Assembly (NCBI GenBank): GCA_036389795.1
Contig: DASVWD010000071.1
Location: forward strand, 1-40,581
Direction: 5' to 3'
Source of the DNA: Longimicrobium sp.
GTDB lineage: Bacteria > Gemmatimonadota > Gemmatimonadetes > Longimicrobiales > Longimicrobiaceae
DNA: 40,581 bases
Under the pieces are notes generated by a model. The model was not told where the DNA came from and searched no databases. It saw only the letters and a list, made by a program, of their open reading frames with translations. Both the position numbers and the translations under genes were made by a program. Positions 11,399 through 26,001 of the stretch are shown here, in pieces. Each line of letters begins with the position of its first letter. The first letter of the stretch is position 1.

Positions 11399-11908
11399 CT
11401 ACCACTCCTCCCGCTCGTCGGCCGCCTCGGCCTTGCGGCGCTCGCGGCGGCGCTCGGCCAGGGCGTGCAGCCGCCGCTCCTCGTCGGTCTCCAGCAGGAG
11501 CGGGGGGACGGGCGCGGGGCGGCCGTTCAGCCGGTCGAGCGCCACGTAGGTGAGCATGCAGCGGTTGGTGAGGCGGCGGACTCCGGTCTCCACCTGCTCG
11601 GCCTCGACGGTCACCAGCACGTCCATGGAGGTGCGGCCCGCGTAGACGATGCGCCCCTTCGCCTCGACGTAGTCGGTGGCGTAGATCGGCTCGCGGAACT
11701 CCACGCGGTCGATGGCCACGGTGACCACGGGGAGCCGCGCGTGCCGCCGCGCCACCACGCCGCCGCACTTGTCCACCAGCGCCAGGATCTCGCCGCCGAA
11801 CACGTTGCCGTGGTGGTTGAGCTGGTCGGGCATCATGCTCTCGGCGAGCACGGAGAGCGACTCGCGCGGCGGCTTCGGCGGGGGGAGGTCGGTGTCGTTC
11901 GGCGGCAT
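11399..11908 (-). CDS. Acyl-CoA thioesterase, hotdog fold (YciA/BACH-like)
   Basis: This 169-residue protein has the single-hotdog acyl-CoA hydrolase pattern: LNHHGNVFGGEILALVDKCG (about residues 30-49) carries the catalytic-region Asn/Gly and Asp, followed by strands VVTVAIDRVEFREPI, GRIVYAGRTSMDVLVTVEAE and the C-terminal MLTYVALD. Family members cleave acyl-CoA to free acid and CoA and act as hexamers. The last 35 residues form an Arg/Glu-rich helix (EERRLHALAERRRERRKAEA). I use the ATG at 11908 because the conserved domain begins soon after and upstream codons encode low-complexity sequence; no strong ribosome-binding site is present. It is the first gene of a unit with the HD hydrolase. 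Confidence 0.88.
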   Translation of the reverse strand: MPPNDTDLPPPKPPRESLSVLAESMMPDQLNHHGNVFGGEILALVDKCGGVVARRHARLPVVTVAIDRVEFREPIYATDYVEAKGRIVYAGRTSMDVLVTVEAEQVETGVRRLTNRCMLTYVALDRLNGRPAPVPPLLLETDEERRLHALAERRRERRKAEAADEREEW

Positions 11909-12645
11909 CGCGGTAGGATCGTGGTCGGGAGAAGTGAGCCGGCGCGGCAAGATGGGCGTCGGCGACAGCGGCGGCAACGGGCGGCGCCGGAGATTCTTCC
12001 ATGTCGCCCATAATCGTTCTGGGTTCAGGTTCTCCAACAAAGGTCTCACGCAGAGCAGCAGAGTCAGCAGAGAAGGCCTCCCGATATTCTCGTGAGACGT
12101 CCCGGCTCGATCTCGAACAATCCTCCGTAAGGACCTCACACAGAGGACACAGAGGACACAGAGGACACGGAGAACTTCGATCCGTTTTGCCGTTCCTCTG
12201 TGTCCTCTGTGAGAGTCGAGCAGTTCCGGGAATTTCGTCGGAGGGCCAGGTCGGCGGAGGAGAACGTGTTCTCTGCTGACTCTGCTGCTCTGCGTGAGAC
12301 GATTCGGTCCAGGATCTCGCCCCGGCCGAGTCCCAGCGGAACGGCTATCGGTCGACGGGAAAGAAGCGCTTCAGGGCGCTCTCACGTGCTCACCGGAGAC
12401 GAAATCATTGACGGGGCGGGCTTTCCGCACTACGTTGCACGTCCCCAAGCCAACACAAGCGACGAAGCATGGCCGGCCCGGCGTGAGGCACCGGGCGCAG
12501 CGCGGCCGCGCGCTCGTCGTCCCCCCGTTCCGTTCCCCATCCACATTGCCGGTCCGGTTGATCCACCGGCTCCGGCCCAGACAGGCTTCCGCGCGCGCGG
12601 CGGTCCGCGCGCGCCGGGGCATTATCCCTTCTCCGGATCTCTACC
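11909..12645. other. Divergent gene-free region of about 0.7 kb
   Basis: This lies between the thioesterase (-) and the kinase-TonB gene (+). It holds the nested inverted repeat at 12045-12298. The flanks are less GC-rich than the genes. No promoter could be named with confidence for either gene, and no coding region is supported. Confidence 0.6.
12045..12298. repeat. Nested inverted repeats: perfect 30-bp outer arms and CACAGAGGA inner arrays
   Basis: The 30-base outer arms (12045-12074 and 12269-12298) are exact reverse complements; their ends are CTCACGCAGAGCAGCAGAG and its complement. Inside, ACACAGAGGACACAGAGGAC-type tandem units (about 12135-12168) are complementary to TCCTCTGTGTCCTCTGTGAG (12194-12213). 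The whole 254 bases can fold into one long nested hairpin. The core word CTCACGCAGAG is shared with 4602-4661. Confidence 0.88.
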
Positions 12646-15195
12646 ATGAGCGGCCTGGAACGACTGCTGATCGGGCGCACCCTGGACGGCCGGTACGCCA
12701 TCGAGGAGCTGATCGGGCAGGGCAGGGGCGGGTCCGTGTACCGGGCGCGCCACACCCGCCTGGGGTCCCTGCTGGCGGTGAAGGTGCTGGCCTCGCCGCG
12801 CAACCCCGAGGCGCGCGAGCGCTTCCGCCGGCTCTTCCGCCACGAGGCGGCGCTGGCCGCGGGGGTGCGGCACCCGGGCCTTCCCCTGGTGATCGGCTCG
12901 GGCACCGACGCCGAGCTGGACGTGGACTTCTTCGTCACCGAGCTGCTGGAGGGCGAGAAGCTCTCGTGCGTGCTGGCGCAGCGGGGGAAGCCGCCCGCGG
13001 CGCTGGCGCTCAGGCTGCTGAGCGAGGCCGCGGCGGGGGCGGGGGCCGCGCACGGGGCGGGGCTGGTGCACCGCGACCTGCGGCCGGCCAACCTGTACCT
13101 GGTGCGCTCCCCGGCGGAGCGGCACGTGCGGGCGCGGGTGGTGGGCTTCGGCGTGCCGCAGCTGGCCTCGCGCGCCACGCTCGCGTCGGCGGACGCGGCG
13201 CTGGTGGGGTACGCGCCGCCGGAGCTGTTCGCGGGCGGGCGCCTGACGCCGGCCGGCGACGTGTTCAGCCTGGGGGCCATCGGCTACGAGCTGCTCGCGG
13301 GCCGGGTGCCCTTCGACGAGGCGGGGCGCCGCGCGCTGGCGGAGGGCCGGCCGGTGCCGCTGGCTCCCCCGGCGGAGCCGGGCGCCGCCGTCCCCGCGCA
13401 CGTGATCGAGGCGATCCTGTGCGCGCTCCGCCCCAACCCCGACGAGCGCTTCGCGGACGCGGCGGCGTTCCAGATCGCGCTCGACACGGTCCCCGCCGCA
13501 TCGTCCCTCCCCGTTCCGGCGATCGGGGTCCCGGGCGGCGCGGCCGACGCGGAGCCGGCGGCGCCGGACTCCGGGGAGAAGCGGGAGGAAGCCGCGCCCG
13601 CCGAGGTCAAGGAGCTGCTCGCCAGGATCGACTCGGAGGTGGTGGCGGCGGAGGCGGACGGGGCCCTGGAGCCGCCGGTCGCCGAGATCCCGCCCCCGTC
13701 GGCAGCCGAGGTGGGGGCAGCGCTCGCGGAGTTCGATGCCGAGGTGGAGACGGCGCCCGTCACCGCGGCCGAGCCCGTCACCGAGGCGGAGCCGGCCGGC
13801 GCCGCAGCCGGGCCCGCTCTTGCCGCCGAGGCGGATTCGGCGGGCGTCGAGGCGGAGTCCCCCACCGTCGCCGAAGCCGAACCGGCCGACATCACCGTGA
13901 CCGTCACCGTCACGGAGGCCGAGCCGGCGGTCGCCGGGGTGGAGTCCATCGTCTCCGAGGCCGGGACGGGCATCATCGAGGCGGAGTCCACCGTCGTGGA
14001 GCCCGCGCCGAAGCCGTTCACCCCGCCGCCGCCGCCCGCCGACCTGCTCCGCGCCGCCTCCCTGGCACCACCGCGGCGAGGCGGCCAGCGCGACGGTGCC
14101 CCGTCCCATCCGCCGACGGCGAAGCCGAAGCCCGGGGGCGGCCGGGCCGGGAAGGCCGCGGCGGCCCCGGTCGAGCCGGTCGGCGCGTTCGCCACGGAGC
14201 GGGAGATCGCTCCGCCCGACGCGCTCGTTCCGCAGCCGCCGATCGAGGTCCTCGCCGCGCAGGTCACGTCGGGCGCGCCGAGGGATGTGCGTCCGGAGCC
14301 GGCCTCGCCCGCGCCCGCCGCGCCGGTGGCGGCCCTGCCGTCCCCCGCTCGCCGGCGGCGGGTGCTCGTGGCGCCGTCCGAGCGTTCGGCGAAGCGCCCG
14401 CCGGTGCTGGTCGGCCTCGTGGTCGCTGTCCTGCTGGTCGGCGCGGCCGGCGGGCTCGCGATGTTCCGCAGGGGAGCCAGCGATGCCAGGGCCGCATCAC
14501 CCGAGGCCGTGAACCAGCTCGCCGCCGGGACCGCGGCCGCGCCCGTCGCCGGCCAGCCGGCGGACGCCCGGGTCCAGGCCTCAATCCAGGCCATCGCCGA
14601 GCAGCCGGAAGAGCCCCAGGAGGAAGCGGCGAAGCAGAAGACGCCGGAGGAGCTCGCCGCCGAGGCCCGCCGGGCGCAGCAGGAGGCCGCGCTCCAGCAG
14701 CAGGCGCAGCAGGCCGCCGCGACGGCGCAGGCGACGCCCGCGCAGCAGCCGCCGGCCCCGCAGCCCGCGCCGGCGGCGCCCGCGCCGGTGCAGCCCCAGC
14801 CCCAGCTCGCCGCCGCGCCGCCTCCGCCGGCGCCCGAGCCGACCATCGCGCCCGCCGAGTCGCGGCGCGCGGCGCCGGCCATCTACGACGCCGACGCGGT
14901 GGAGCAGCAGCCGGCGCTGGTCAACGGCCCCGAGGTGGGGCGCCTGCTGCGGGAGCGCTACCCGATGCAGATGCTGCGCAACCGCATCGAGGGGCGCGTG
15001 ACGGCCACCTTCGTGGTGCGCGAGGACGGCAGCGTCGACCCCTCCAGCGTGCGCGTGGTGAGCTCGGCGAACGCGGCGTTCAACAACGCCACCGCCGGCG
15101 TGCTGCGCCGCGCCCGCTTCAGTCCCGCGCGCGTCAACGGCCAGCCGGTGAAGTCGCAGGTCACCATGCCCGTCGTCTGGGCCATCGACAGGTGA
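12646..15195 (+). CDS. Degenerate Ser/Thr kinase fused to a TonB C-terminal domain
   Basis: An 849-residue, two-part membrane protein. The N-terminal Hanks-type kinase fold (about 15-285) keeps the Gly-rich loop (GQGRGGSV), Lys46 in LLAVKVL and the catalytic loop HRDLRPAN (Asp144, Asn149), with a YAPPELF APE motif. The metal-binding DFG is GFG (Gly167), so catalysis is doubtful. A long Ala/Pro/Glu-rich linker (about 290-580) precedes a transmembrane helix (586-607) and a Gln/Ala/Pro-rich periplasmic spacer. A TonB/energy-transducer C-terminal domain (about 770-849) follows, with RIEGRVTATFVVREDGSVD and ARFSPARVNGQPV. The domain order puts the kinase in the cytoplasm and TonB in the periplasm. 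It may link signalling to outer-membrane transport. A terminator follows directly. Confidence 0.9.
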   Translation: MSGLERLLIGRTLDGRYAIEELIGQGRGGSVYRARHTRLGSLLAVKVLASPRNPEARERFRRLFRHEAALAAGVRHPGLPLVIGSGTDAELDVDFFVTELLEGEKLSCVLAQRGKPPAALALRLLSEAAAGAGAAHGAGLVHRDLRPANLYLVRSPAERHVRARVVGFGVPQLASRATLASADAALVGYAPPELFAGGRLTPAGDVFSLGAIGYELLAGRVPFDEAGRRALAEGRPVPLAPPAEPGAAVPAHVIEAILCALRPNPDERFADAAAFQIALDTVPAASSLPVPAIGVPGGAADAEPAAPDSGEKREEAAPAEVKELLARIDSEVVAAEADGALEPPVAEIPPPSAAEVGAALAEFDAEVETAPVTAAEPVTEAEPAGAAAGPALAAEADSAGVEAESPTVAEAEPADITVTVTVTEAEPAVAGVESIVSEAGTGIIEAESTVVEPAPKPFTPPPPPADLLRAASLAPPRRGGQRDGAPSHPPTAKPKPGGGRAGKAAAAPVEPVGAFATEREIAPPDALVPQPPIEVLAAQVTSGAPRDVRPEPASPAPAAPVAALPSPARRRRVLVAPSERSAKRPPVLVGLVVAVLLVGAAGGLAMFRRGASDARAASPEAVNQLAAGTAAAPVAGQPADARVQASIQAIAEQPEEPQEEAAKQKTPEELAAEARRAQQEAALQQQAQQAAATAQATPAQQPPAPQPAPAAPAPVQPQPQLAAAPPPPAPEPTIAPAESRRAAPAIYDADAVEQQPALVNGPEVGRLLRERYPMQMLRNRIEGRVTATFVVREDGSVDPSSVRVVSSANAAFNNATAGVLRRARFSPARVNGQPVKSQVTMPVVWAIDR

Positions 15196-15343: not shown

Positions 15344-15592
15344 ATGCCCAGGTCCGCCCTGCGCGGTAACGTCCCGCGAGATGCCGCTGAAAAGCCTGCG
15401 ATTCGCCGGAAGAACTTGAATATCGACCAGAACAAGCTGGACCGCGCGGTCAAGATTCTCGGTGCCCACTCCGAGACGGAGGCCGTAGACCGTGCGCTGG
15501 ACCTTCTGGTGTTCCGGGAGGATCTCCTAGAGGGAATTCGTCGAATCGGAGGCACGGGCGGCGTCGAGAACTTCTTCGACGAGCACCTCTGA
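15344..15592 (+). CDS. Putative antitoxin of a VapBC-like pair
   Basis: An 82-residue basic protein with a short helical region (LNIDQNKLDRAVKILG...SETEAVDRALDLLVF) matching the VapB-type ribbon-helix-helix antitoxins: a beta strand with basic flanks, then two helices. The acidic, aromatic C-terminus (GGVENFFDEHL) is the part that usually wraps the toxin. GAGGG lies six to eight bases before the ATG. One base separates its stop from the GTG of the PIN-domain gene, the normal antitoxin-first layout. The longer than usual N-terminus (about 25 residues before the strand) might start instead at a later codon, but no better start is visible. Confidence 0.8.
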   Translation: MPRSALRGNVPRDAAEKPAIRRKNLNIDQNKLDRAVKILGAHSETEAVDRALDLLVFREDLLEGIRRIGGTGGVENFFDEHL

Positions 15593-15593
15593 C

Positions 15594-16052
15594 GTGCGAA
15601 AGTTCGCGCTCGACACGAACCTCTACGTCCGGAGCATCCGAAATCCTGCCGATGCCGGGGACCTGGGGCGCTTCTACTCCGCCTTCGCCCCCTCCCTCTA
15701 TCTCAGTTCCATCGTCCTCCACGAACTCCTCATCGGCGCAGATGGGGAGTTGAAGGTCAAGCAGATCCACAGGGACATTGCGGGTCCGTTCGACCGCACC
15801 GGGCGGATCTTCGCCCCTTCTCATCGGTCATGGGTCGCGGCAGGGGAAGCGCTCGCGAAGCTGGCCTCCACGGGTGATCTGGACCGCCGGGCGCTTCCCC
15901 GTTCCTTCATCAACGACGTGCTGCTTGCTGCTTCGTGTAGAGAAGCGGGAATCACGCTGGTCACCGACAACGGTCGCGATTTTATGCGGATCGCGCGCGT
16001 GCTTCCATGCGAGTTCGTCGAGCCTTGGCCACGAAGTCTTTCCCAAGATTAA
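15594..16052 (+). CDS. PIN-domain ribonuclease toxin, VapC-like
   Basis: A 152-residue PIN-domain protein. The acidic metal-binding residues are in place: Asp7 in FALDTNLYVRS, Glu44 in SSIVLHELLIGA, Asp108 in RSFINDVLLAASCRE and Asp125 in LVTDNGRDF. VapC toxins cut tRNA or rRNA in a Mg2+/Mn2+-dependent way and are held inactive by the cotranslated antitoxin. The GTG start immediately follows the antitoxin stop, which supports both the start and the coupling. The full domain is present, with no truncation. Codon use is somewhat less GC-rich than in surrounding genes, consistent with a mobile toxin-antitoxin cassette. The RNA target is unknown. Confidence 0.9.
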   Translation: MRKFALDTNLYVRSIRNPADAGDLGRFYSAFAPSLYLSSIVLHELLIGADGELKVKQIHRDIAGPFDRTGRIFAPSHRSWVAAGEALAKLASTGDLDRRALPRSFINDVLLAASCREAGITLVTDNGRDFMRIARVLPCEFVEPWPRSLSQD

Positions 16053-17289: not shown

Positions 17290-17725
17290 GCCGGCGGCGC
17301 GGCGCGCGGCCGCGGCGTTCGACGTGGCGTGGGCCTGGTGGGCGCTCGCGCTCGCCCGGCTGCAGGTGTGGCTGCGCCCCACCGGGCGGCTGCTGGGCTC
17401 CGACGAGCCTCCCGCCGCGCCCGCCGCCGCGCCGCTGGCCCGCGAGCGCGCCGTCCGCCTGGCGCGCGCGGTGGACCGCGCCGCCCGCGGGCCGCTGCGG
17501 GCCACCTGCCTGGTGCGCGCGGTGGCGCTGCACCGCCTGCTGCAGGCGTCGGGCGTCGACGGCAGCCTGGTGCGGATCGGCGTGCGGGCCGAGGGCGGGC
17601 GCTTCGCGGCGCACGCGTGGGTGGAGTACCACGGCGCCGCGCTGGGGACCGACGGGGCGCGGGCGCGCTCCTTCCTCCCCCTGGCGCCCGAGGCCCTGGG
17701 GCCCGGCGCGGAGTTCGGCCGGTGA
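17258..17725 (+). CDS. Lasso peptide B2: transglutaminase-like leader peptidase
   Basis: A 155-residue protein of the Transglut_core3 (McjB C-terminal) type that removes the leader in lasso peptide maturation. The catalytic Cys84 lies in LRATCLVRAVALHRLL, His119 in AAHAWVEYHG, and Asp132 (GTDGARAR) sits 13 residues after the His, close to the McjB spacing. The N-terminus is Arg/Ala-rich with a Trp-rich helix (VAWAWWALALARLQVWL), as in other B2 proteins. It starts inside the B1 gene (32-base overlap) and its TGA overlaps the GTG of the cyclase gene, so B1, B2 and C are coupled. Confidence 0.92.
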   Translation: MRRSSQGRARKPAARRAAAAFDVAWAWWALALARLQVWLRPTGRLLGSDEPPAAPAAAPLARERAVRLARAVDRAARGPLRATCLVRAVALHRLLQASGVDGSLVRIGVRAEGGRFAAHAWVEYHGAALGTDGARARSFLPLAPEALGPGAEFGR

Positions 17726-19776
17726 GTGCCCTGGTCGCGGTCTTCGGGGCGCCGGACGCGCTGCCGGACGACGCCGGGGTGCGGCGGATGCTGGCCGCCG
17801 CGCGCCGGGGCGACGGCCCCGCGGCGCTCCACCGCCAGCCTGGGTGCGTGCTGGCCGTCCGCCGCCACGCCTGGGAGACGGCCGACGGCTTCGGCGGGCC
17901 GGCCGCGGTGGTGACGGAGGACGGCCTGACCGTGGTCACCGACGCCACCCTCTACCACCGGGACGACCTGCGGCGGGACCTGCGCGCGCGGGGAGTGGCG
18001 CCCTCCGGCGACACCCCGGGGCACCTGGTGCTGGCGGCGTACCGCGCCTGGGGTGAGCGCTGCCCCGAGCACCTGGAGGGCGATTTCGCCTTCGTGCTCT
18101 GGGACGCCCGCGCCCGCCGCGCGGTGTGCGCCCGCGACTTCGCGGGGAAGCGCCCGCTCCTGTACGCCGAGGTCCCCGGGGCCCTGGTGGTGGCCTCCGC
18201 CGCCGGCGCCGTGCTGGCGCACCCGGCCGTCTCCGCGGAGCTCAACCCCGCGTCGCTGGCCGAGGCCGCGGCGGGGATGTGGGCGGGGAGTGACGAGACC
18301 GCCTTCCGCGCCGTGCGGCGGCTGCACCCTGCCCACACGCTCCGCTGGGAGGGGGGCGCCCCGGCCCGGACCGCGCCCCACTGGTCGCCCCCGGCGATGG
18401 GCTCCGCGCGTGGGCCCGCCTTCGACGAGGCCGCGGAGGAGCTGCGGGAGCTGCTCGTCCGCGCGGCCGCGGAGCGCCTCCCCGCCCCGGGGCCGGCGGC
18501 GGTGTGGATGAGCGGGGGGTGGGACTCGACCGCCGTCTTCGCGGCCGGTCAGGACGCGCTCCGCTGCGAAGGCAGGGGCGGCGGCGCCCTGGAGGTCGTC
18601 TCGGTCAGCTACCCGCAGGGCGACCCGGGGCGTGAGGACGAGCTGATCCAGGCCGTCGCCGGGCACTGGGGGCGGCCGGTCCACTGGCTCCGGATCGGCG
18701 AGATCCCGATGCTCGGGCGCGCGGAGGAGCGGGTGGCGGCGCGCGACGAGCCCCTGGCGCACGTCTTCGAGACGTGGAACCGCGCGCTGATCGGGCGGAC
18801 CCGCGAGCTGGGGGCGCGGGTGGCGCTCGACGGCAACGGGGGCGACCAGCTCTTCTTCACCAGCAACGTGTTCTTCGCGGACCTGCTGGTGCGCGGGCGC
18901 TGGCGCGAGCTGCGGCGCGAGTGGCGGGTGAAGGGGGGGACGCGCCCGCGCGACTTCTACGACAACGCCGTCCGGCCGCTCCTCTCCCCGGGCCTGGCGC
19001 GGCTGGTGGCGGCGCTCGGGGGCCCGCGTCCTGACCCCGTCTTCGAGCGCCCGGTGCCGGGGTGGATCCCGCCCGCCTTCGCGCGGCGGCACGGCCTGGC
19101 GGCGCGCGAGCGGGCGCACAGCCCGCGGCCGCCCTGGCGCGGCCTGGCCGAGCGCGAGGCGTACTGGTACCTGACCTGTCCGCACTTCGCCCGGGCCTAC
19201 GGGCTCCTCTCGGGCTTCGCGCTGGAGGCGGGGGTGGAGCTGCGCTCGCCGCTTCTGGACCGGCGGGTGGTGGAGCTCGCGGCGGCGCGCCCGCGCCCCG
19301 AGCGCAACGCCGGGCGCGAGGTCAAGCGCCTGCTGCGCCGCTCCATGCGCGGCCTCCTCCCCGACGGGGTCCTCGCTCCGCGCGACGCCAAGACGGGGAC
19401 GCTGGACGGCTACTTCGCCCGCTCGATGCAGGGGGGCTTCCCCGCGCTCGCCGAGGCCGCGCTCTCCGGCTCGCCGCGGCTGGCCGAGCTGGGGATCGTG
19501 GAGCCCGGGGCCTTCCGCGCCGGACTCGAGGAGTACGCCCGCACGGGCGACGGCTGGCTGGGCTACGCGCTGCACCAGACGGTGCAGGTGGAGCTCTGGC
19601 TCCGCGCCCGCGAGGGCGGCACACATCGTTTCGCGCCGGCCGGGGCGCCGGAAGCCTCGCTTCCGCGCACCCGCGCGCCGGCACTCACAGCCGCGGCCAC
19701 TCCGGGCCGCGCACCGGGCGCAAGCCCGGTCCACCCGCGACCAGGAGGTGTCGCGTGTACACCAAACCCACGCTGA
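17722..19776 (+). CDS. Lasso peptide C: asparagine synthetase-like macrolactam synthetase
   Basis: A 684-residue AsnB homologue. The N-terminal class II amidotransferase-like domain (about 1-215, with LEGDFAFVLWDARARRAVCARD) lacks the nucleophilic Cys: the residue after the initiator is Ser. This is expected for lasso cyclases, which use the leader-freed amine instead of ammonia. The synthetase domain has the ATP pyrophosphatase loop MSGGWDST (Ser264-Ser269) and the later ALDGNGGDQLFF motif. The enzyme adenylates the core Asp/Glu side chain and closes the macrolactam. The GTG start overlaps the B2 stop (GTGA). The last 50 residues are Pro/Ala-rich and unlike the family; the reading frame runs 22 bases into the precursor gene. 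Confidence 0.93.
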   Translation: MSALVAVFGAPDALPDDAGVRRMLAAARRGDGPAALHRQPGCVLAVRRHAWETADGFGGPAAVVTEDGLTVVTDATLYHRDDLRRDLRARGVAPSGDTPGHLVLAAYRAWGERCPEHLEGDFAFVLWDARARRAVCARDFAGKRPLLYAEVPGALVVASAAGAVLAHPAVSAELNPASLAEAAAGMWAGSDETAFRAVRRLHPAHTLRWEGGAPARTAPHWSPPAMGSARGPAFDEAAEELRELLVRAAAERLPAPGPAAVWMSGGWDSTAVFAAGQDALRCEGRGGGALEVVSVSYPQGDPGREDELIQAVAGHWGRPVHWLRIGEIPMLGRAEERVAARDEPLAHVFETWNRALIGRTRELGARVALDGNGGDQLFFTSNVFFADLLVRGRWRELRREWRVKGGTRPRDFYDNAVRPLLSPGLARLVAALGGPRPDPVFERPVPGWIPPAFARRHGLAARERAHSPRPPWRGLAEREAYWYLTCPHFARAYGLLSGFALEAGVELRSPLLDRRVVELAAARPRPERNAGREVKRLLRRSMRGLLPDGVLAPRDAKTGTLDGYFARSMQGGFPALAEAALSGSPRLAELGIVEPGAFRAGLEEYARTGDGWLGYALHQTVQVELWLRAREGGTHRFAPAGAPEASLPRTRAPALTAAATPGRAPGASPVHPRPGGVACTPNPR
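19742..19749 (+). promoter_or_regulatory. Very strong ribosome-binding site of the lasso precursor
   Basis: AGGAGGTG lies five bases before the GTG at 19755, inside the end of the cyclase gene. It is the best ribosome-binding site in the cluster, fixes the precursor start, and would favour high precursor synthesis relative to the enzymes. Confidence 0.8.
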
Positions 19777-19907
19777 CCCGTTTCGGGACGCTCCGCGAGC
19801 TCACGCTCTGCGGCGCGAGCGCGCCGCTCGACGGCGGGCCCTCGAACGGGAACGGCTCCACCAACTTCAACTGCGGCACCAGTGGTGGAGGGGGGAGTCA
19901 CTCGTAG
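19755..19907 (+). CDS. Lasso peptide precursor (A)
   Basis: A 50-residue peptide between the cyclase and kinase genes. The leader MYTKPTLTRFGTLRELTL (1-18) has the conserved Tyr2, Pro5, Leu7 and Gly11 of the RRE-binding motif, and Thr17 at position -2 of the predicted cleavage. The core is then 19-50: CGASAPLDGG, followed by PSNGNGSTNFNCG and a Gly/Ser tail ending in His-Ser. Core Cys1 and Asp8 would close an eight-residue macrolactam ring. Cys22 is the only other Cys, so one disulfide is possible. The terminal Ser fits the cluster's HPr-kinase-like enzyme, which in paeninodin-type clusters phosphorylates the C-terminal Ser. The GTG start is fixed by the AGGAGGTG site. Cleavage and modifications are inference. 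Confidence 0.88.
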   Translation: MYTKPTLTRFGTLRELTLCGASAPLDGGPSNGNGSTNFNCGTSGGGGSHS

Positions 19908-19922
19908 TCCGTGTGGCTCCCC

Positions 19923-19948
19923 GTGGAGGGCCCCTCGGGGCCCTCCAC
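19923..19948 (+). other. Stem-loop directly after the precursor gene
   Basis: A perfect 11-bp GC stem (GTGGAGGGCCC/GGGCCCTCCAC) with a CTCG tetraloop begins 16 bases past the precursor stop and ends 26 bases before the kinase gene. There is no U-tract, so it more likely protects or processes the precursor mRNA, or causes partial termination, than ends transcription. Confidence 0.65.
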
Positions 19949-19973
19949 CCGTCCTCACCCTCGCAAGATCGAC

Positions 19974-20930
19974 ATGCCGGACTACGCTGTCTTCGGCGGC
20001 CTCCTCCGCTCCGAGCTGGAGCTCATGGGCGTTCCCCCCGCGGGCGAGGGGAGGGACGCGGACTGGCGCCTGCGCGTCGTCCGCCGTCCTCCGCCGCCCA
20101 CCGCCCACGCCCCCGAGGCCGAGGTGGGCGAGGACGGCTACGCGGTGCGGCTCTACCGGCTGACGGACGGCTGGCGGCTGGCGTACGCCGACACCGGCAC
20201 CTACGACGTCTCGGCCGGCGGCGCCCGCATCGCCTGGCACCCCGTCCCCGGCGCCCTCCCCGAGCTGGTGCAGGCCGACGTGCTGGGGCGGGTGCTGGCG
20301 CTGGCGCTGGGCGCGGCGGGGGCGCTCCCGCTGCACGGCAGCGCCGTGGCCCTGGACGGGGAGAGCATCGTTCTCCTCGGCGAGAAGCACCACGGGAAGT
20401 CCACCCTGGCCGCCGCGCTCACCGCGGCCGGCGCCCGGCTGGTCTCCGACGACATGGCGGCCGTGGAGCCCGGCCCCCCCGCGCTCCTGCGCCCCGGCGT
20501 GGCCCAGCTGCGCCTGTGGGCCGACAGCGCACAGAGCGCGCTGGGCGACACCCCCGCCACCCGCTCGGGGGGGATCAAGGACACCCTCTCGGGGCTCCCC
20601 GCCGAGCGGGTGGAGACGGCGTCCACGCGGCTCGGGGCGATCTACGTCCTGGCCCCCGAGGCCGCGGATGGCGAGGGCGAGCCCGTGGCCCGCGTCCCGC
20701 TCGCCCCCACCGAGGCCGCGCTGGCGCTCCTGGTGCACGCCAAGCTGGGCGCCCTCCTTCGCGGCCCGCTCGCCGCCGAGCACCTGCGCCGCGCGGCGCA
20801 GGTCGTCCGCCAGGTGCCCGTCTACAGCCTGCGCGTGGTGCGCGGCCTGGAGCGCCTCCCCCGGGTGGCCGCCCGCGTGCTGCAGTGGCACGGCGCGGCG
20901 GCGGCAGGGCGGCCGGAGGCGCTGCCGTGA
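19974..20930 (+). CDS. Lasso-cluster HPr-kinase-like protein (probable precursor Ser kinase)
   Basis: A 318-residue protein related to the C-terminal domain of HPr kinase/phosphorylase. The P-loop is GEKHHGKS (136-143, Lys142), preceded by the strand pair LPLHGSAVALDGESIVLLG, and followed by LVSDDMAAVEPG with the acidic pair typical of this family. The N-terminal 110 residues are a variable domain. In paeninodin-type lasso clusters the equivalent kinase phosphorylates the C-terminal Ser of the precursor, and here the precursor ends in Ser. I use the ATG at 19974 because the upstream in-frame GTG lies within the hairpin leader. Its TGA overlaps the GTG of the ABC ATPase. A carbon-catabolite role is unlikely because there is no HPr gene nearby. 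Confidence 0.88.
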   Translation: MPDYAVFGGLLRSELELMGVPPAGEGRDADWRLRVVRRPPPPTAHAPEAEVGEDGYAVRLYRLTDGWRLAYADTGTYDVSAGGARIAWHPVPGALPELVQADVLGRVLALALGAAGALPLHGSAVALDGESIVLLGEKHHGKSTLAAALTAAGARLVSDDMAAVEPGPPALLRPGVAQLRLWADSAQSALGDTPATRSGGIKDTLSGLPAERVETASTRLGAIYVLAPEAADGEGEPVARVPLAPTEAALALLVHAKLGALLRGPLAAEHLRRAAQVVRQVPVYSLRVVRGLERLPRVAARVLQWHGAAAAGRPEALP

Positions 20931-21991
20931 TCGCCGCCGCGCCCCGCGCCTCCGCCCGGGTGGAGGGCGCGCCGCCGCCCCCGCGCGAGGCGGTGGTGCG
21001 GCTGGAGGGGCTCGCCAAGAGCTTCCCCGTGCGCCGCGGCTGGCGCGAGACGCTCCTGCACCCGCGCTCCGGGCGCCTCGCCCCCGCGCTGCAGGGCGTC
21101 ACCTGCGACGTGGCCGCCGGCGAGCTGTTCGGGCTCCTGGGCCCCAACGGCGCGGGGAAGACCACGCTCTTCCGCATCCTCTCCACGCTGGTGCTCCCCG
21201 ACGCCGGCACCGCCCGGGTGGGCGGCGCCGACGTGGCGCGCGAGCCCGCGCGGGTGCGCCGCCTGCTGGCGCCGGTGCTCACCGACGAGCGCAGCCTGAA
21301 CTGGCGCCTCTCGGCCCGCGAGAACCTGCGCCTCTTCGCCGCGCTCTACGGCCTGTCGGGCGCCGCAGCCCGCGCCCGGGTGGACGAAGTGCTGCAGGTG
21401 GTGGAGCTGGGCGACGCCTCGGAGCGGCCCGTGGGCGGCTTCTCGTCGGGGATGAAGCAGCGCCTCCTGCTGGCGCGCGCGCTCCTGGCCCGCCCGCGGG
21501 TGCTGCTGCTGGACGAGCCCACCCGCAGCCTGGACCCGATCTCGGCCCGGCGCTTCCGCGCCTTCCTGCGCGACGAGGTGGTGGGGCGGCGGGGGTGCAC
21601 GGTGATCCTGGCCACCCACGCCGCCGACGAGGCGATGGAGCTGTGCGACCGGGTGGCGGTGCTGGACCGCGGGCGCCTGCTGGCGGTGGGCCCGGCCGAG
21701 GAGCTCTCCCGCCGCGCGGGGCGCGAGCGCTACCGCGTGTGGACGCGCGCCCCGGAGCACCCCGCCTTCGCCGTGCTGGCGCGGCGCGGGCTCCTCCGGT
21801 CGCCCCGCGCGGGCGAGGCGGGCGAGGAGGGGTGGGCAAGCGTGGACGCCGAGGTCCCCGGCGGCGAGGAGGGGGCGGCCGCCGTGCTGGCGGCGCTCGC
21901 GGCCGAGCGGGTGCCGGTCTCCCGCTTCGAGCGGGTGCGGCCCACCCTGGCCGAGCTGATCGAGCGCATCGTGGAGGAGGCCGCCCCGTGA
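20927..21991 (+). CDS. ABC exporter ATPase of the lasso cluster
   Basis: A 354-residue ABC ATPase of the NatA/drug-exporter type. It has Walker A GPNGAGKTT (from Gly72), a Q-loop region VLTDERSLNW, the signature FSSGMKQR (from Phe172), Walker B VLLLDEPTRSLDP (Asp196, Glu197) and a switch His in ATHAADEAM. About 35 extra N-terminal residues precede the domain, and a C-terminal region of about 100 residues ends in the exporter-like FERVRPTLAELIERIVEE. It is coupled to the kinase upstream and the permease downstream by GTGA overlaps. With the permease it should form the D transporter that exports the finished lasso peptide and gives self-immunity. Confidence 0.93.
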   Translation: MIAAAPRASARVEGAPPPPREAVVRLEGLAKSFPVRRGWRETLLHPRSGRLAPALQGVTCDVAAGELFGLLGPNGAGKTTLFRILSTLVLPDAGTARVGGADVAREPARVRRLLAPVLTDERSLNWRLSARENLRLFAALYGLSGAAARARVDEVLQVVELGDASERPVGGFSSGMKQRLLLARALLARPRVLLLDEPTRSLDPISARRFRAFLRDEVVGRRGCTVILATHAADEAMELCDRVAVLDRGRLLAVGPAEELSRRAGRERYRVWTRAPEHPAFAVLARRGLLRSPRAGEAGEEGWASVDAEVPGGEEGAAAVLAALAAERVPVSRFERVRPTLAELIERIVEEAAP

Positions 21992-22791
21992 GCCGACCCG
22001 TGGGCGCGCTGGTGCGCGCGGCGTTCCTGACCGACGCCAGCTATCGGGTGGCGATGCTCACCTCGCTGGCCGGCCTGATCGCGACGACGATTCCCGTCTA
22101 CTTCATCTCCGGGGCGATCCAGCCCGTGGTGGCCGAGTCGATCGCCACGCAGGGGGGGCAGTACTTCGCCTTCGTGCTGGTGGGGATGATGGCGGTGAAC
22201 TTCGTGCACTCGGCGTGCAGCGCGCTCCCGGGCGCCGTCTCGTCCGGGATCCGCAGCGGCACCCTGGAGGTGATGCTCGCCACCCCCACCCCGGTGCCCA
22301 CCCTGCTGGCGGGGATGGTGGGGTACCCGCTGATCTGGACACTGCTGCGCGCCGCCGTCCTCCTGCTGACCGGCGCGGTGCTGGGCGCGCGCTTCGCGCC
22401 GGGGGGCGCGCTCCCGGCCGCGGCGGTGCTCGCGCTGATCGTGCTGGCGTACCTCCCCTTCGGGCTGCTGGGGGCGGCGCTCCTGCTGGTGTTCCGCACC
22501 ACCGGCCCGGTGCTGCAGGGGGTGGTGGTGCTCTCGCTCCTGCTGGGCGGCGTCTACTATCCCACCGAGGTGATCCCGGCGCCGCTGCGCGTGTTCTCGA
22601 GCGTCCTTCCCCTCACCTACGGCCTCAGGGCGCTGCGGCGCACGCTGCTGGACGGCGCGCCCCCCGCCGCGGTGGCGGGCGACGTGGCCGCGCTGCTGGG
22701 CTTCACGGCGGTGCTCCTGGCCGCGGGCTCGCTGGCGCTGGCGGCGGCGCTGCGCCACGCGCGGCGCCAGGGCACCCTGGCGCAGTACTGA
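21988..22791 (+). CDS. ABC-2 type permease of the lasso cluster
   Basis: A 267-residue membrane protein with six hydrophobic segments typical of the ABC-2 permease family (NatB/DrrB-like), including the amphipathic-loop pattern GIRSGTLEVMLATPTPVPTLL and the late motif GGVYYPTEVIPAPLRVFSSVLPLTY, quoted here as separate conserved blocks. It starts at a GTG overlapping the ATPase stop (GTGA). Two copies probably pair with two ATPases to export the mature peptide. The presence of a NatAB-like pair rather than a single fused McjD-type exporter is notable but known from other non-proteobacterial lasso clusters. Export of another cluster product cannot be excluded. Confidence 0.92.
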   Translation: MSRPVGALVRAAFLTDASYRVAMLTSLAGLIATTIPVYFISGAIQPVVAESIATQGGQYFAFVLVGMMAVNFVHSACSALPGAVSSGIRSGTLEVMLATPTPVPTLLAGMVGYPLIWTLLRAAVLLLTGAVLGARFAPGGALPAAAVLALIVLAYLPFGLLGAALLLVFRTTGPVLQGVVVLSLLLGGVYYPTEVIPAPLRVFSSVLPLTYGLRALRRTLLDGAPPAAVAGDVAALLGFTAVLLAAGSLALAAALRHARRQGTLAQY

Positions 22792-22794
22792 GCC

Positions 22795-24003
22795 GTGCCG
22801 CGCCATCCGCCCCTCCTCCCCGAAGCGGAGCTGCTGCTGCTGGCCGCGCGCGGCCCCGAGGGCGACGAGCGCTTCCGCGCGCTGCTGGACACGGGGCTCG
22901 ACTGGGACCGGGTGGCGGCGCGGGTGGAGCGCGACCGGGCGCACGCCGCGTTCTGGCGGCGGGCGGCGGCCGCCGGGCTGGAGCGGATCCCCCCCGAACC
23001 CCGCGAGCGGCTGCGCCGGCTGGGCCAGGTGGCAGCCTTCCGGCAGGCGCGCCTGGAGGAGCGGCTGGGCCAGGCGCTCGGCGTGCTGGAGGGCGCCGGC
23101 GTCGAGGTGCTCCTGCTCAAGGGCGCGGCGCTGGCGGTCTCGGTGTACGGCTCGTTCGCCGAGCGGCCGATGGCCGACCTGGACCTGCTGGTCCCCGCCG
23201 ACCAGGCGGAAGAGGCGCAGCGCCTGCTGCTGGAGGCCGGCTGGGTGCGCGCGGCGCCGGTGCCGGCCGAGCGCCTGGACGCGCTCTACGCAGGGCACCA
23301 CCACCTGGCGCCGCTGGCCGACGCGGGCGGCACGGGGGTGGTCCTGGAGCTGCACACCGCCCCGCTCCCCCCCGGCCATCCGTTCCGCCTGGACGCCGCC
23401 GACCTCTGGCGCGAGTCGCTCCCCGTGCGAGTGGGCGCCCGCGCCGCGCGCGTGCCCGACCTGCACCACCAGGTGCTGCACCTCTGCCTGCACTTCGCCT
23501 GGGCGCACGCCATGGAGTCGGGCGCCTGGCGCACGCTGCGCGACCTGCGCGCGCTCTCCGCCCGGGAGGGGCTCGACTGGGGGCGCGTGGCAGCCCTGGC
23601 GCGAGATGCGCGGGGGGCGAGCTGCGCCTACTGGGCGCTCCGGCTGGCGCGGGGGCTGGTGGGCGCGCGGGTGCCGGACGGGGTGCTGGAGGCGCTGGCC
23701 CCGCGCGGCTCGCGGTGGAGGCTGGACCTGCTGGAGCGGCACTTCGTGGCGACGCTCTTCGGCGGGGCGCGCTGCCCCTCGCCGCGGGTCACGCGCGCGC
23801 TCTGGGAGGCGGCGGTCGCGCCGGGGCGGAGCGGGCACGGCGCGGCGCGGCCGTGGCTGCGGCAGGAGGCGTTCGCGGAAGCCGGGATCGCCGCGGTGGA
23901 CGCCGGGGCGCGCGCCTCGGCGTGGGGGGACTTCGCCGGGTGGCGGCGCTACCTGGGGACGCTCCTCTTCGCCGCGCAGGGCGGGGTCGGCGTCCTGTTC
24001 TGA
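22795..24003 (+). CDS. NTP_transf_5-type nucleotidyltransferase of the lasso cluster
   Basis: A 402-residue protein of the uncharacterised nucleotidyltransferase family PF14907. The core LLLKGAALAVSVYGSFAERP leads to MADLDLLVP with Asp128 and Asp130, the metal-binding pair of the polymerase-beta-like fold; later blocks VVLELHTAPL, HHQVLHLCLHF and TLRDLRALS match the family. It is the last gene, with GTG three bases after the permease stop, so it belongs to the operon. Relatives occur in many lasso and other RiPP clusters, sometimes beside HPr-kinase-like genes, but their exact chemistry is not settled. It might transfer a nucleotide or further phosphate onto the peptide; that is speculation. 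No terminator is obvious after it. Confidence 0.88.
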   Translation: MPRHPPLLPEAELLLLAARGPEGDERFRALLDTGLDWDRVAARVERDRAHAAFWRRAAAAGLERIPPEPRERLRRLGQVAAFRQARLEERLGQALGVLEGAGVEVLLLKGAALAVSVYGSFAERPMADLDLLVPADQAEEAQRLLLEAGWVRAAPVPAERLDALYAGHHHLAPLADAGGTGVVLELHTAPLPPGHPFRLDAADLWRESLPVRVGARAARVPDLHHQVLHLCLHFAWAHAMESGAWRTLRDLRALSAREGLDWGRVAALARDARGASCAYWALRLARGLVGARVPDGVLEALAPRGSRWRLDLLERHFVATLFGGARCPSPRVTRALWEAAVAPGRSGHGAARPWLRQEAFAEAGIAAVDAGARASAWGDFAGWRRYLGTLLFAAQGGVGVLF

Positions 24004-24104: not shown

Positions 24105-24974
24105 TCAGCCGGCGAAGCCCTCCAGGATTTCGAGCATGTCCGCCAGGTGTCCGCGGATGTCGGCCAGCGCCGCCCCGTCGGTGAACCCCGGCTCCCTCTC
24201 CTTCAGGGCCCGAGCCACCTCTGGCAGCAGGGGTTGGAAGGCTCCGCCCAGTGCCAGACCCAGGGTGTTGCTCGCGTGGCGGATCCTGTCTCTCGCGAGC
24301 TTCCGCGTTTCCCTCGCCTGCACCATCTCCGCCAGATCGGATTCGATGCGGCCCACCACCTCGGCCCCGGCCGCCATCAGGTCGCGCAAGTACAACAGGT
24401 CCTTGGCTCGTTTGGGATTCGCGCCTCCCTGACGGGCTTGCCGGCGTGCGAACGTCGACGACTTGTTGACGACGTAGGCTCCGAGAGTGGGAACCCAGAT
24501 CTCCAGAGACACGCCTCCCGCGGGCGTGGCGGCCGGGATCGCCAGCCGTCGCCGGAAGCGGCGCATGAAGTCCAGGCCGCCGAGAGGTATGGCGCCCATC
24601 CCGTTCTGGGCGGTCACGGGGACGACGGCCCCTTCCTGCCGGCTGGCCCCCTGATGCGGAACCAGGAACTCTATCTTCTCTCCACTCCGAACATCGCGCT
24701 CCCACACGGCGAGACCGCCCTCTTCCACGGCAGGACGGAACCCCGCCTTGCGCAGGATCTCGGGGATCGAGGGGCGGCCCGCGGGGAGAAGCGGGCGATC
24801 CACCAGGACATCCACCTCCGCGGTGAGGGACGTGCTCGTCATCCACGAGGCGAATCCCCCGTACCGTTTGTAGAGATACGGCACCCAGCCGCCGACGATC
24901 ACGAGCTCGTTGAGGTACGGCCGCAACTCCCACACGATCCGTCGCAAGGCGGCCTCGTAGGGCGAGAAGTCCAT
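24105..24974 (-). CDS. AbiEii-like nucleotidyltransferase (type IV toxin-like)
   Basis: A 289-residue protein with a minimal nucleotidyltransferase motif: the strand-turn VIVGGWVPYLY (Gly28-Gly29) and the acidic strand TAEVDVLVD (Glu53, Asp55). The rest is mostly helical, as in AbiEii/MenT-type proteins, with NPKRAKDLLYLRDLM as the usual helix near the C-terminal half. Such enzymes add nucleotides to tRNA or other targets and are neutralised by an AbiEi antitoxin. The antitoxin gene ends one base before this ATG (TGAAATGG), so they are cotranslated. Composition is less GC-rich than the surroundings, in line with horizontal gain. Toxicity is inferred from the pair, not from a strong motif match. 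Confidence 0.78.
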   Translation of the reverse strand: MDFSPYEAALRRIVWELRPYLNELVIVGGWVPYLYKRYGGFASWMTSTSLTAEVDVLVDRPLLPAGRPSIPEILRKAGFRPAVEEGGLAVWERDVRSGEKIEFLVPHQGASRQEGAVVPVTAQNGMGAIPLGGLDFMRRFRRRLAIPAATPAGGVSLEIWVPTLGAYVVNKSSTFARRQARQGGANPKRAKDLLYLRDLMAAGAEVVGRIESDLAEMVQARETRKLARDRIRHASNTLGLALGGAFQPLLPEVARALKEREPGFTDGAALADIRGHLADMLEILEGFAG

Positions 24975-24975
24975 T

Positions 24976-26001
24976 TCACGCGAAGAGGTGCTGAGCGTCG
25001 ATGATGTGCTCGGCCTGCTCACGGCCTCTGAGCGGATAGTGCCAGAGGTCGAGGGCGAGCTGCAGGTCGCTCACCACCGGCAGACCGCCGATCTCCCGCA
25101 TGCCGTGCCAGACGGAGTCCCGGTAATACGGCTTCATCAGAACGAGCCGACCCTCCTCCGCGACCGGCCATCCCTGGTTTTCCGCCAGATCCAGCAAATC
25201 GCCCGTTTTTTCGACGTCCACGTAGGCGTGTACGCGTTCCCAGCTCGCGTGAGGCGCGACGAGAGACGCTCCGGCATGCATCGTCAGCGCCCACCTGTAC
25301 GCTGCGAAGACGCTCCGCGAGCGTCGCAGGAAGCGCATCGGGTCTCCGAGTGGGGCGTTGAGGGCGATGCTCTGGTTCTTCACCCAGTCGTACGCGCCCG
25401 TCCAGAGCGTGAACAGACCGCGCGGCTCCGTCAGCCGGATATGGGAGCCACGTCCGATCCGCCTGAGGGTGACGATCCTGTGCCGCAGCAGCTCGCGAAC
25501 AATCCTCGTGACGGTCGCGGGTCCGACGCCGGCCGCACCAGCGAGCTCGCGCACCCCCCAGGACCGGTCTCCGGTCGTAAGCAGCGTTCGTACGACCAGG
25601 GAGCTCCGGTCGGCAAAAGGATCGAACGACGGGTACGCCGATTTCCTCCGCGGCGGGGGTGGAATCCCGCTCCGGTCGACCAGCAGGTTCGGGAAAGTCA
25701 GGTGCACCGTTCCCCGCAGGTCGACGAAGTTCTTCCGCTGGTTCCGGAGGCGGTCGTGAAGTCCCTTTGTTGCGCCCGTTAGAATCCAGACCCTGGCCGG
25801 ATCGTCGCTCAGGTCTGGCTCCGCATGGGTCCAGAGTACGAATTCGAGGGGGATCGCCTCTCCCCCCTGGAACTCGATCACCGCGTCGTGTCCAGGCTCG
25901 TTGCTCGCGGCCCGGACGGACGCGCTCGGACTCAGAGCCTCTTTGACGAGCAGAAAGGCATCCCGCTCGGGACGATGGGAGCTTCCATTGTGTTGTTTCA
26001 T
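24976..26001 (-). CDS. AbiEi-like winged-helix antitoxin/regulator
   Basis: A 341-residue protein with a winged helix-turn-helix in the middle (about 136-200, VRELAGAAGVGPATVTRIVREL with the wing RRIGRGSHIRL, read as two blocks). It is followed by an AbiEi-like C-terminal domain (TMHAGASLVAPHASWERVHAYVD). The N-terminal 100 residues resemble a restriction-endonuclease-like or effector domain without catalytic residues I can name. In type IV systems AbiEi both counters the nucleotidyltransferase and represses its own promoter by binding inverted repeats; a perfect 18-bp palindrome lies 12 bases upstream of this gene. The ATG follows AAAGGA by six bases. The whole operon looks like an insertion beside the lasso cluster. 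Confidence 0.8.
   Translation of the reverse strand: MKQHNGSSHRPERDAFLLVKEALSPSASVRAASNEPGHDAVIEFQGGEAIPLEFVLWTHAEPDLSDDPARVWILTGATKGLHDRLRNQRKNFVDLRGTVHLTFPNLLVDRSGIPPPPRRKSAYPSFDPFADRSSLVVRTLLTTGDRSWGVRELAGAAGVGPATVTRIVRELLRHRIVTLRRIGRGSHIRLTEPRGLFTLWTGAYDWVKNQSIALNAPLGDPMRFLRRSRSVFAAYRWALTMHAGASLVAPHASWERVHAYVDVEKTGDLLDLAENQGWPVAEEGRLVLMKPYYRDSVWHGMREIGGLPVVSDLQLALDLWHYPLRGREQAEHIIDAQHLFA

Follow-up and report, generated by a model that had tools for sequence, protein, structure and literature searches.

Receptor kinases of the PknB/StkP type combine a cytosolic Hanks-type kinase fold, a linker, one transmembrane helix and an outer domain of PASTA repeats. In PknB and StkP these repeats read the cell wall. 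Families of bacterial pseudokinases have been reviewed, and the accessible part of that review, in which TonB is unmentioned, calls a protein a pseudokinase by sequence when it lacks at least one of the β3 Lys, the HRD Asp and the DFG Asp (PMC12599244). The same part describes DLHK pseudokinases, exemplified by Hrdlrpas with GFG, all of which lack a transmembrane segment and have lost the β3 Lys, as well as MviN and EssB/YukC, membrane proteins whose pseudokinase domain has a non-catalytic role (PMC12599244). Among eukaryotic proteins, CASK and STRAD-alpha have altered metal-binding residues but keep the fold and can bind nucleotide without a cation (PMC4718504). The helix of the energy transducer TonB is also relevant here; in E. 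coli it touches ExbB through Ser16 and His20 (PMC12215075).

We analyzed a stretch of 40,581 nucleotides (the window), which is the whole of contig C71 of a Longimicrobium sp. genome of 7.5 Mb in 285 contigs. One of its genes starts with ATG and joins in one frame a kinase-like domain (Pfam Pkinase, residues 17-227, 84.8 bits, E 8.5e-24, cut-off 31.7) to a C-terminal TonB domain (Pfam TonB_C, 51.9 bits, E 1.1e-13, cut-off 24.6). The coordinates of its parts are collected in Table 1. A single hydrophobic segment was predicted, and the kinase end would lie in the cytosol with TonB_C in the periplasm. The linker ahead of this segment, counted over the 298 residues 283-580, contains 46 Asp and Glu against 21 Lys and Arg, together with 72 Ala and 50 Pro.

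Table 1. Features of the kinase-TonB_C gene and of its conserved neighbors in the window
Feature	Position	Strand	Basis and remarks
Whole gene, 849 aa: pseudokinase, linker, transmembrane helix, linker, TonB_C	12646..15195	+	Same frame in orthologues
Hanks-type kinase fold, residues 17-282	12694..13491	+	Pfam, AlphaFold2, PknA match
β3 Lys46 (AAG)	12781..12783	+	Alignment; kept in GFG orthologues, Arg in both GLG relatives
HRD Asp144 (GAC)	13075..13077	+	Alignment; kept in 6 of 6 clade members
Catalytic-loop Asn149 (AAC)	13090..13092	+	Alignment; Ser in both orthologues, Met in two GLG relatives
GFG replacing DFG, residues 167-169	13144..13152	+	Alignment
Linker, acidic, Ala/Pro-rich, presumed cytosolic, residues 283-586	13492..14403	+	Composition
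Transmembrane helix, residues ~587-607, without Ser-x-x-x-His	14404..14466	+	Hydrophobic segment prediction
Linker, Ala/Gln/Pro-rich, presumed periplasmic, residues 608-770	14467..14955	+	Sequence and composition
TonB_C domain, residues 771-846	14956..15183	+	Pfam; sequence and structure matches
4HBT thioesterase, syntenic neighbor; functional tie to the fusion putative only	11399..12139	-	Pfam and synteny
VapB-like/PIN (VapBC) pair	15344..16052	+	Adjoins the fusion in all three genomes

The order of kinase, transmembrane helix and outer domain is that of the PASTA-type receptor kinases, but the outer domain is TonB_C, no PASTA repeat was matched by Pfam at E 0.01, and the DFG Asp has been lost in the lineage. 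Like the DLHK example, one orthologue of the protein reads HRDLRPAS with GFG; the window protein, however, has one transmembrane segment and retains Lys46. MviN and EssB/YukC differ in their unrelated outer parts and other catalytic motifs, which for MviN are given as VALT, Lsidhpsr and Y-- (PMC12599244). The protein shares its C-terminal domain with TonB, but it lacks the Ser-x-x-x-His helix and has a kinase fold ahead of the membrane. With CASK and STRAD-alpha, which are cytosolic and share no outer domain with it, the likeness is one of working and not of descent. No description of kinase-TonB fusions, or of a signaling route from TonB_C to Ser/Thr phosphorylation, was found in the part of the literature covered. 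Bacterial pseudokinase families are known; transmembrane Hanks-type (pseudo)kinases with TonB_C as the outer domain appear to be new.

Orthologues were searched with the kinase part in 41 genomes and with a profile of three rows in 394 genomes of the class. Only two close ones were found, both in the same genus (genomes G002 and G008), with kinase parts 59-61% identical; a single scan of genome contigs returned 13 distant kinases and no orthologue. Both orthologues have the same architecture in a single frame. The fusion is therefore not a product of sequencing error, which the preliminary description had named as a way in which the TonB part might turn out to be a separate protein, and its account of one polypeptide made of kinase fold, acidic linker, membrane helix and TonB domain was correct. 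The three genomes also share the neighborhood, consisting of TerC, a GAF histidine kinase, HD_3, a 4HBT thioesterase, a VapBC pair and the fusion, with an acyl-CoA dehydrogenase beyond. The VapBC pair lies downstream of the fusion in the window and upstream of it in the other two loci (L066 11145-11857; L067 10699-11420), and VapC is 44-45% identical. No PP2C, FHA or transporter gene was found directly beside the window gene, where the conserved neighbors are the thioesterase, HD_3, the histidine kinase and TerC.

The same preliminary description had reported that the DFG Asp is replaced by Gly while Lys46 and the HRD Asp are kept, and this holds in the sequence: residue 167 is Gly (codon GGC), the αC Glu67 is present, and the protein is a pseudokinase by the sequence definition given above. 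Gly167, Lys46, Glu67 and Asp144 are common to the window protein and both syntenic orthologues, and both of these read GFG. When 129 kinase-scoring frames were reduced to 91 distinct ones and aligned, the DFG Asp was kept in 85, and Gly took its place only in the window protein and its two orthologues. The other three frames without it were L040 (AFG, genome G015) and two distant kinases, L017 and L018. Two more TonB_C-fused proteins, L192 (G001) and L188 (G009), read GLG and HGD; their β3 Lys is replaced by Arg and Asn149 by Met.

From an alignment without the catalytic columns, IQ-TREE placed the window protein, its two orthologues, L040, L192 and L188 in one clade (support 96/96). The wider kinase tree omits 10 of 101 rows (in the range L009-L021), and the tree used for the clade omits 9 more. 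All six members lack the DFG Asp (three GFG, one AFG and two GLG), which indicates that this loss is old in the lineage and that some of its branches went on to lose more of the catalytic residues. TonB_C is present in five of the six; the frame of L040 meets the end of its contig inside the linker. G015 also has a stray TonB_C fragment (L213, at the edge of contig C57), which groups loosely with the clade in the TonB_C tree, with 81-85% SH-aLRT on a branch that is not starred, and no exact overlap is shared by the two contig ends. Members are distributed patchily, in 6 of the 21 genomes of the family. No 4HBT, HD_3 or TerC neighbor was found at the loci of the GLG relatives, which leaves the same-locus reading unsupported for them. 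To judge by its residues, the window gene is a member of a conserved pseudokinase lineage. The preliminary description had taken homologues with an intact DFG as a sign against this assignment; such kinase-TonB_C fusions do exist, but in other kinase lineages.

The structure models are consistent with the domain assignment. The AlphaFold2 model of the kinase part, made from 13 sequences, had a pLDDT of 86.4; within the activation segment, residues 173-185 scored below 50. Its best match was PknA (4x3f_B; Z 31.0, rmsd 2.5, 259 residues aligned), which is also nearest by sequence; among solved kinase domains, PknA and PknB come closest. The absence of CASK among the structure matches listed for the model carries no weight either way. 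The model of TonB_C was weak (pLDDT 60.7), and its best matches, the C-terminal domains of TonB and TolA (best Z 6.3, rmsd 3.5, 83 residues aligned), agree with the sequence matches, which include E. coli TonB (chain 1xx3, E 1.3e-4).

A census of kinase-TonB_C fusions was made by a TonB_C profile search of the 21 family genomes, followed by reading of the long frames among the listed rows. The 22 fusion lines, several of which were partial copies of one protein, collapsed to at least 16 complete fusions in 12 genomes and one cut by a contig end (L164, G011), giving 13 of 21 genomes. Five belong to the clade without the DFG Asp, two are canonical kinases (G014 and G015; HRD..N and DFG), two are DYG kinases (G005 and G006), one is a DFG kinase (G005) and one an SDFS kinase (G016). 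Five others, from G000, G003, G005, G006 and G018, have GDVNESN and DTD motifs, by which we presume them to resemble TerY-triad kinases; the Pkinase match was below the Pfam cut-off in all four that were scanned (the fifth is L189). For L183, TonB_C was matched by our own profile and not by Pfam at E 0.01. Several kinase lineages thus contribute fusions, and in many of these the catalytic residues are intact. A single origin of all of them was rejected, since a tree holding 11 such rows together gave a p-AU of 2.7e-139, although these rows include L040, in which TonB_C was not seen, and a distant kinase (L203) that contributes to the rejection. On the wider kinase tree, where L040 counts as unfused and the TerY-like fusions are absent, the fusion label needs six changes (gains or losses), at least four of them forced by starred branches. 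On the clade tree, with unlabeled rows ignored, the other five TonB-fused rows fall on one side of the six-member branch, which has no bearing on a single origin.

When the TonB_C profile was applied to the 394 class genomes at E 1e-24, with 12 candidates scored per genome, 10 matches lay outside the family, in frames of 139-349 aa that are too short for this fusion; fusions outside the family may exist among matches weaker than this limit. One Hanks-kinase lineage, starting M-x-G-[IL/F]-E-x-LL-x-GR, has expanded throughout the family with several paralogues per genome; at E 1e-60 it was found in 21 of the 394 class genomes, all belonging to the family of the window. TonB_C was also joined to another signaling-type domain, peptidase M56 instead of a kinase, in six frames (L204, L195, L191, L200, L193 and L025, from genomes G009, G008, G003, G012, G005 and G000), some with two TonB_C domains. 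A kinase-like protein of G018 (L196, contig C464) likewise has two.

Some sister fusions are accompanied by PP2C and FHA genes, a likeness to the PASTA kinases. In G016, FHA, PP2C and kinase-TonB_C genes overlap or nearly touch (L240 7400-10859), and in the window's own genome a run of VWA, PP2C and kinase-TonB_C genes was found on contig C121 (L241 7954-11403). The L241 fusion is the second one of this genome, with the motifs GDVNESN and DTDSF plus CPWC. To judge from gene content, such runs are the company of Ser/Thr phospho-signaling and not of nutrient uptake. The pattern of PP2C, FHA or VWA genes was not seen beside the other fusions examined.

The membrane helices separate the fusions from other TonB proteins. 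Ser-x-x-x-His was present in none of 16 fusion helices, including that of the window protein. Among the other TonB_C frames for which a transmembrane segment was predicted, 24 of 36 had it (Fisher p 3e-6); left out of this count are duplicates, 13 frames in which no such segment was predicted, and eight loci of M56 or similar fusions. When the M56 protein L068 was removed from the non-fusion frames, the motif was present in 23 of 35 (p 6e-6). We conclude that kinase-TonB_C fusions are probably not energized in the usual way.

The TonB_C of one kinase fusion, L184 of G005, was 96% identical over 107 aa to that of the stand-alone TonB of the same genome, L156. The shared part contained 16 synonymous and 5 nonsynonymous differences, and the sequence upstream was unrelated. 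We take it that L184 probably acquired the end of a functional TonB recently and has retained it under constraint.

Taken together, we give an even chance to the reading that the window protein is a single-pass receptor, in which TonB_C senses or docks in the periplasm and the pseudokinase acts as a switch or scaffold in the cytosol, with no energy transduction. It would be an inner-membrane receptor of the PknB/StkP layout with TonB_C in place of the PASTA repeats. TonB_C would dock onto or sample a target in the periplasm, for which the TonB box that outer-membrane transporters expose when loaded is the likeliest candidate, and the membrane helix would relay the state of this target to the cytosolic part. 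Loaded transporters are preferred as the target mainly because of the capture in G005, which belongs to a kinase lineage other than the window clade. The cytosolic domain presumably does not bind the catalytic metal in the normal way and would act as a switch or scaffold with no catalysis or very little; it may pair with one of the canonical kinases of the same lineage in the genome. This is close to the sensor or scaffold of the preliminary description, except that we take the periplasmic end, rather than the cytosolic one, to be the sensor. A broader proposal is tentative and somewhat unlikely: that Hanks-type kinases repeatedly captured TonB_C as a sensor to read the loading of transporters and report it by phospho-signaling, with one lineage having become a pseudokinase relay. 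If TonB_C is the outer domain of a receptor kinase, the state of outer-membrane transporters could be coupled directly to Ser/Thr phospho-signaling.

Like CASK, which itself has GFG, the cytosolic domain might instead be an atypical active kinase that binds ATP without a divalent metal and transfers phosphate slowly, so that TonB_C would feed a working kinase. CASK transfers phosphate without cations (PMC4718504). All three GFG orthologues retain Lys46, Glu67 and Asp144, so weak or metal-independent catalysis by these members is possible. The substitutions in the rest of the catalytic site point the other way: Asn149 is Ser in both orthologues, and the GLG branch has Arg for the β3 Lys and Met for the Asn, which suggests that catalysis was apparently not what was kept in the clade. 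We consider an active kinase unlikely.

Equally unlikely in our judgment is that TonB_C reads peptidoglycan or another periplasmic ligand, not transporters, as PASTA repeats do. TonB C-termini bind peptidoglycan, and the layout of a PASTA receptor kinase and the lack of the energizing motif in the fusions are consistent with such a role, as is an amidase with a peptidoglycan-binding domain less than about 1 kb from the second fusion of the genome (L241 12428-13360). However, the near-copy of the C-terminus of a Ser-x-x-x-His TonB in the G005 fusion points to the usual partners of TonB, at least there.

The preliminary suggestion was that the protein may be an energized TonB, in which the kinase-like part would monitor the cytosol and adjust TonB-dependent uptake, with ExbB and the window's two ExbD proteins as the source of power. 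The TonB_C match is genuine, and the two exbD genes are indeed in the window, at 352-780 and 820-1236, about 11 kb from the fusion. Nevertheless, no match to these ExbD proteins was found in the stretches around the G002 and G008 orthologues, while contig C47 of the window's genome encodes a TonB with Ser-x-x-x-His and, about 450 bases away, an ExbB. Because the motif is missing from every fusion helix counted and exbD is not a conserved neighbor, the ExbD partnership is not supported and energized control of uptake appears very unlikely.

Constraint was estimated as NG86 omega. Between G002 and G008, the closest pair, TonB_C had the lowest omega at 0.20, followed by the kinase at 0.36 and the cytosolic linker at 0.47. 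Comparison with the more distant window sequence gave 0.66-0.96 in the kinase and TonB_C, values that are uninformative and no evidence of constraint, because GC3 of the window gene and its orthologues is above 0.9, so that dS is probably too low and omega too high. That the gene is a decaying relic of a receptor kinase, losing its function with the fold still present, is hardly credible. The stepwise loss of catalytic residues and the patchy distribution of the clade would fit it, but the frame is open in at least five genomes, synteny extends over several genes, and omega is low in both domains of the closest pair.

Elsewhere in the window, genes for asparagine synthase, a glutamine amidotransferase, an HPr-kinase-like protein, an ABC transporter and NTP_transf_5 lie in a row at 17329-24003, which we take to resemble a gene cluster of the lasso-peptide type. 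On the reverse strand at 24105-26001, NTP_transf_8 stands beside AbiEi_2, in the order of an AbiE-like toxin-antitoxin system.
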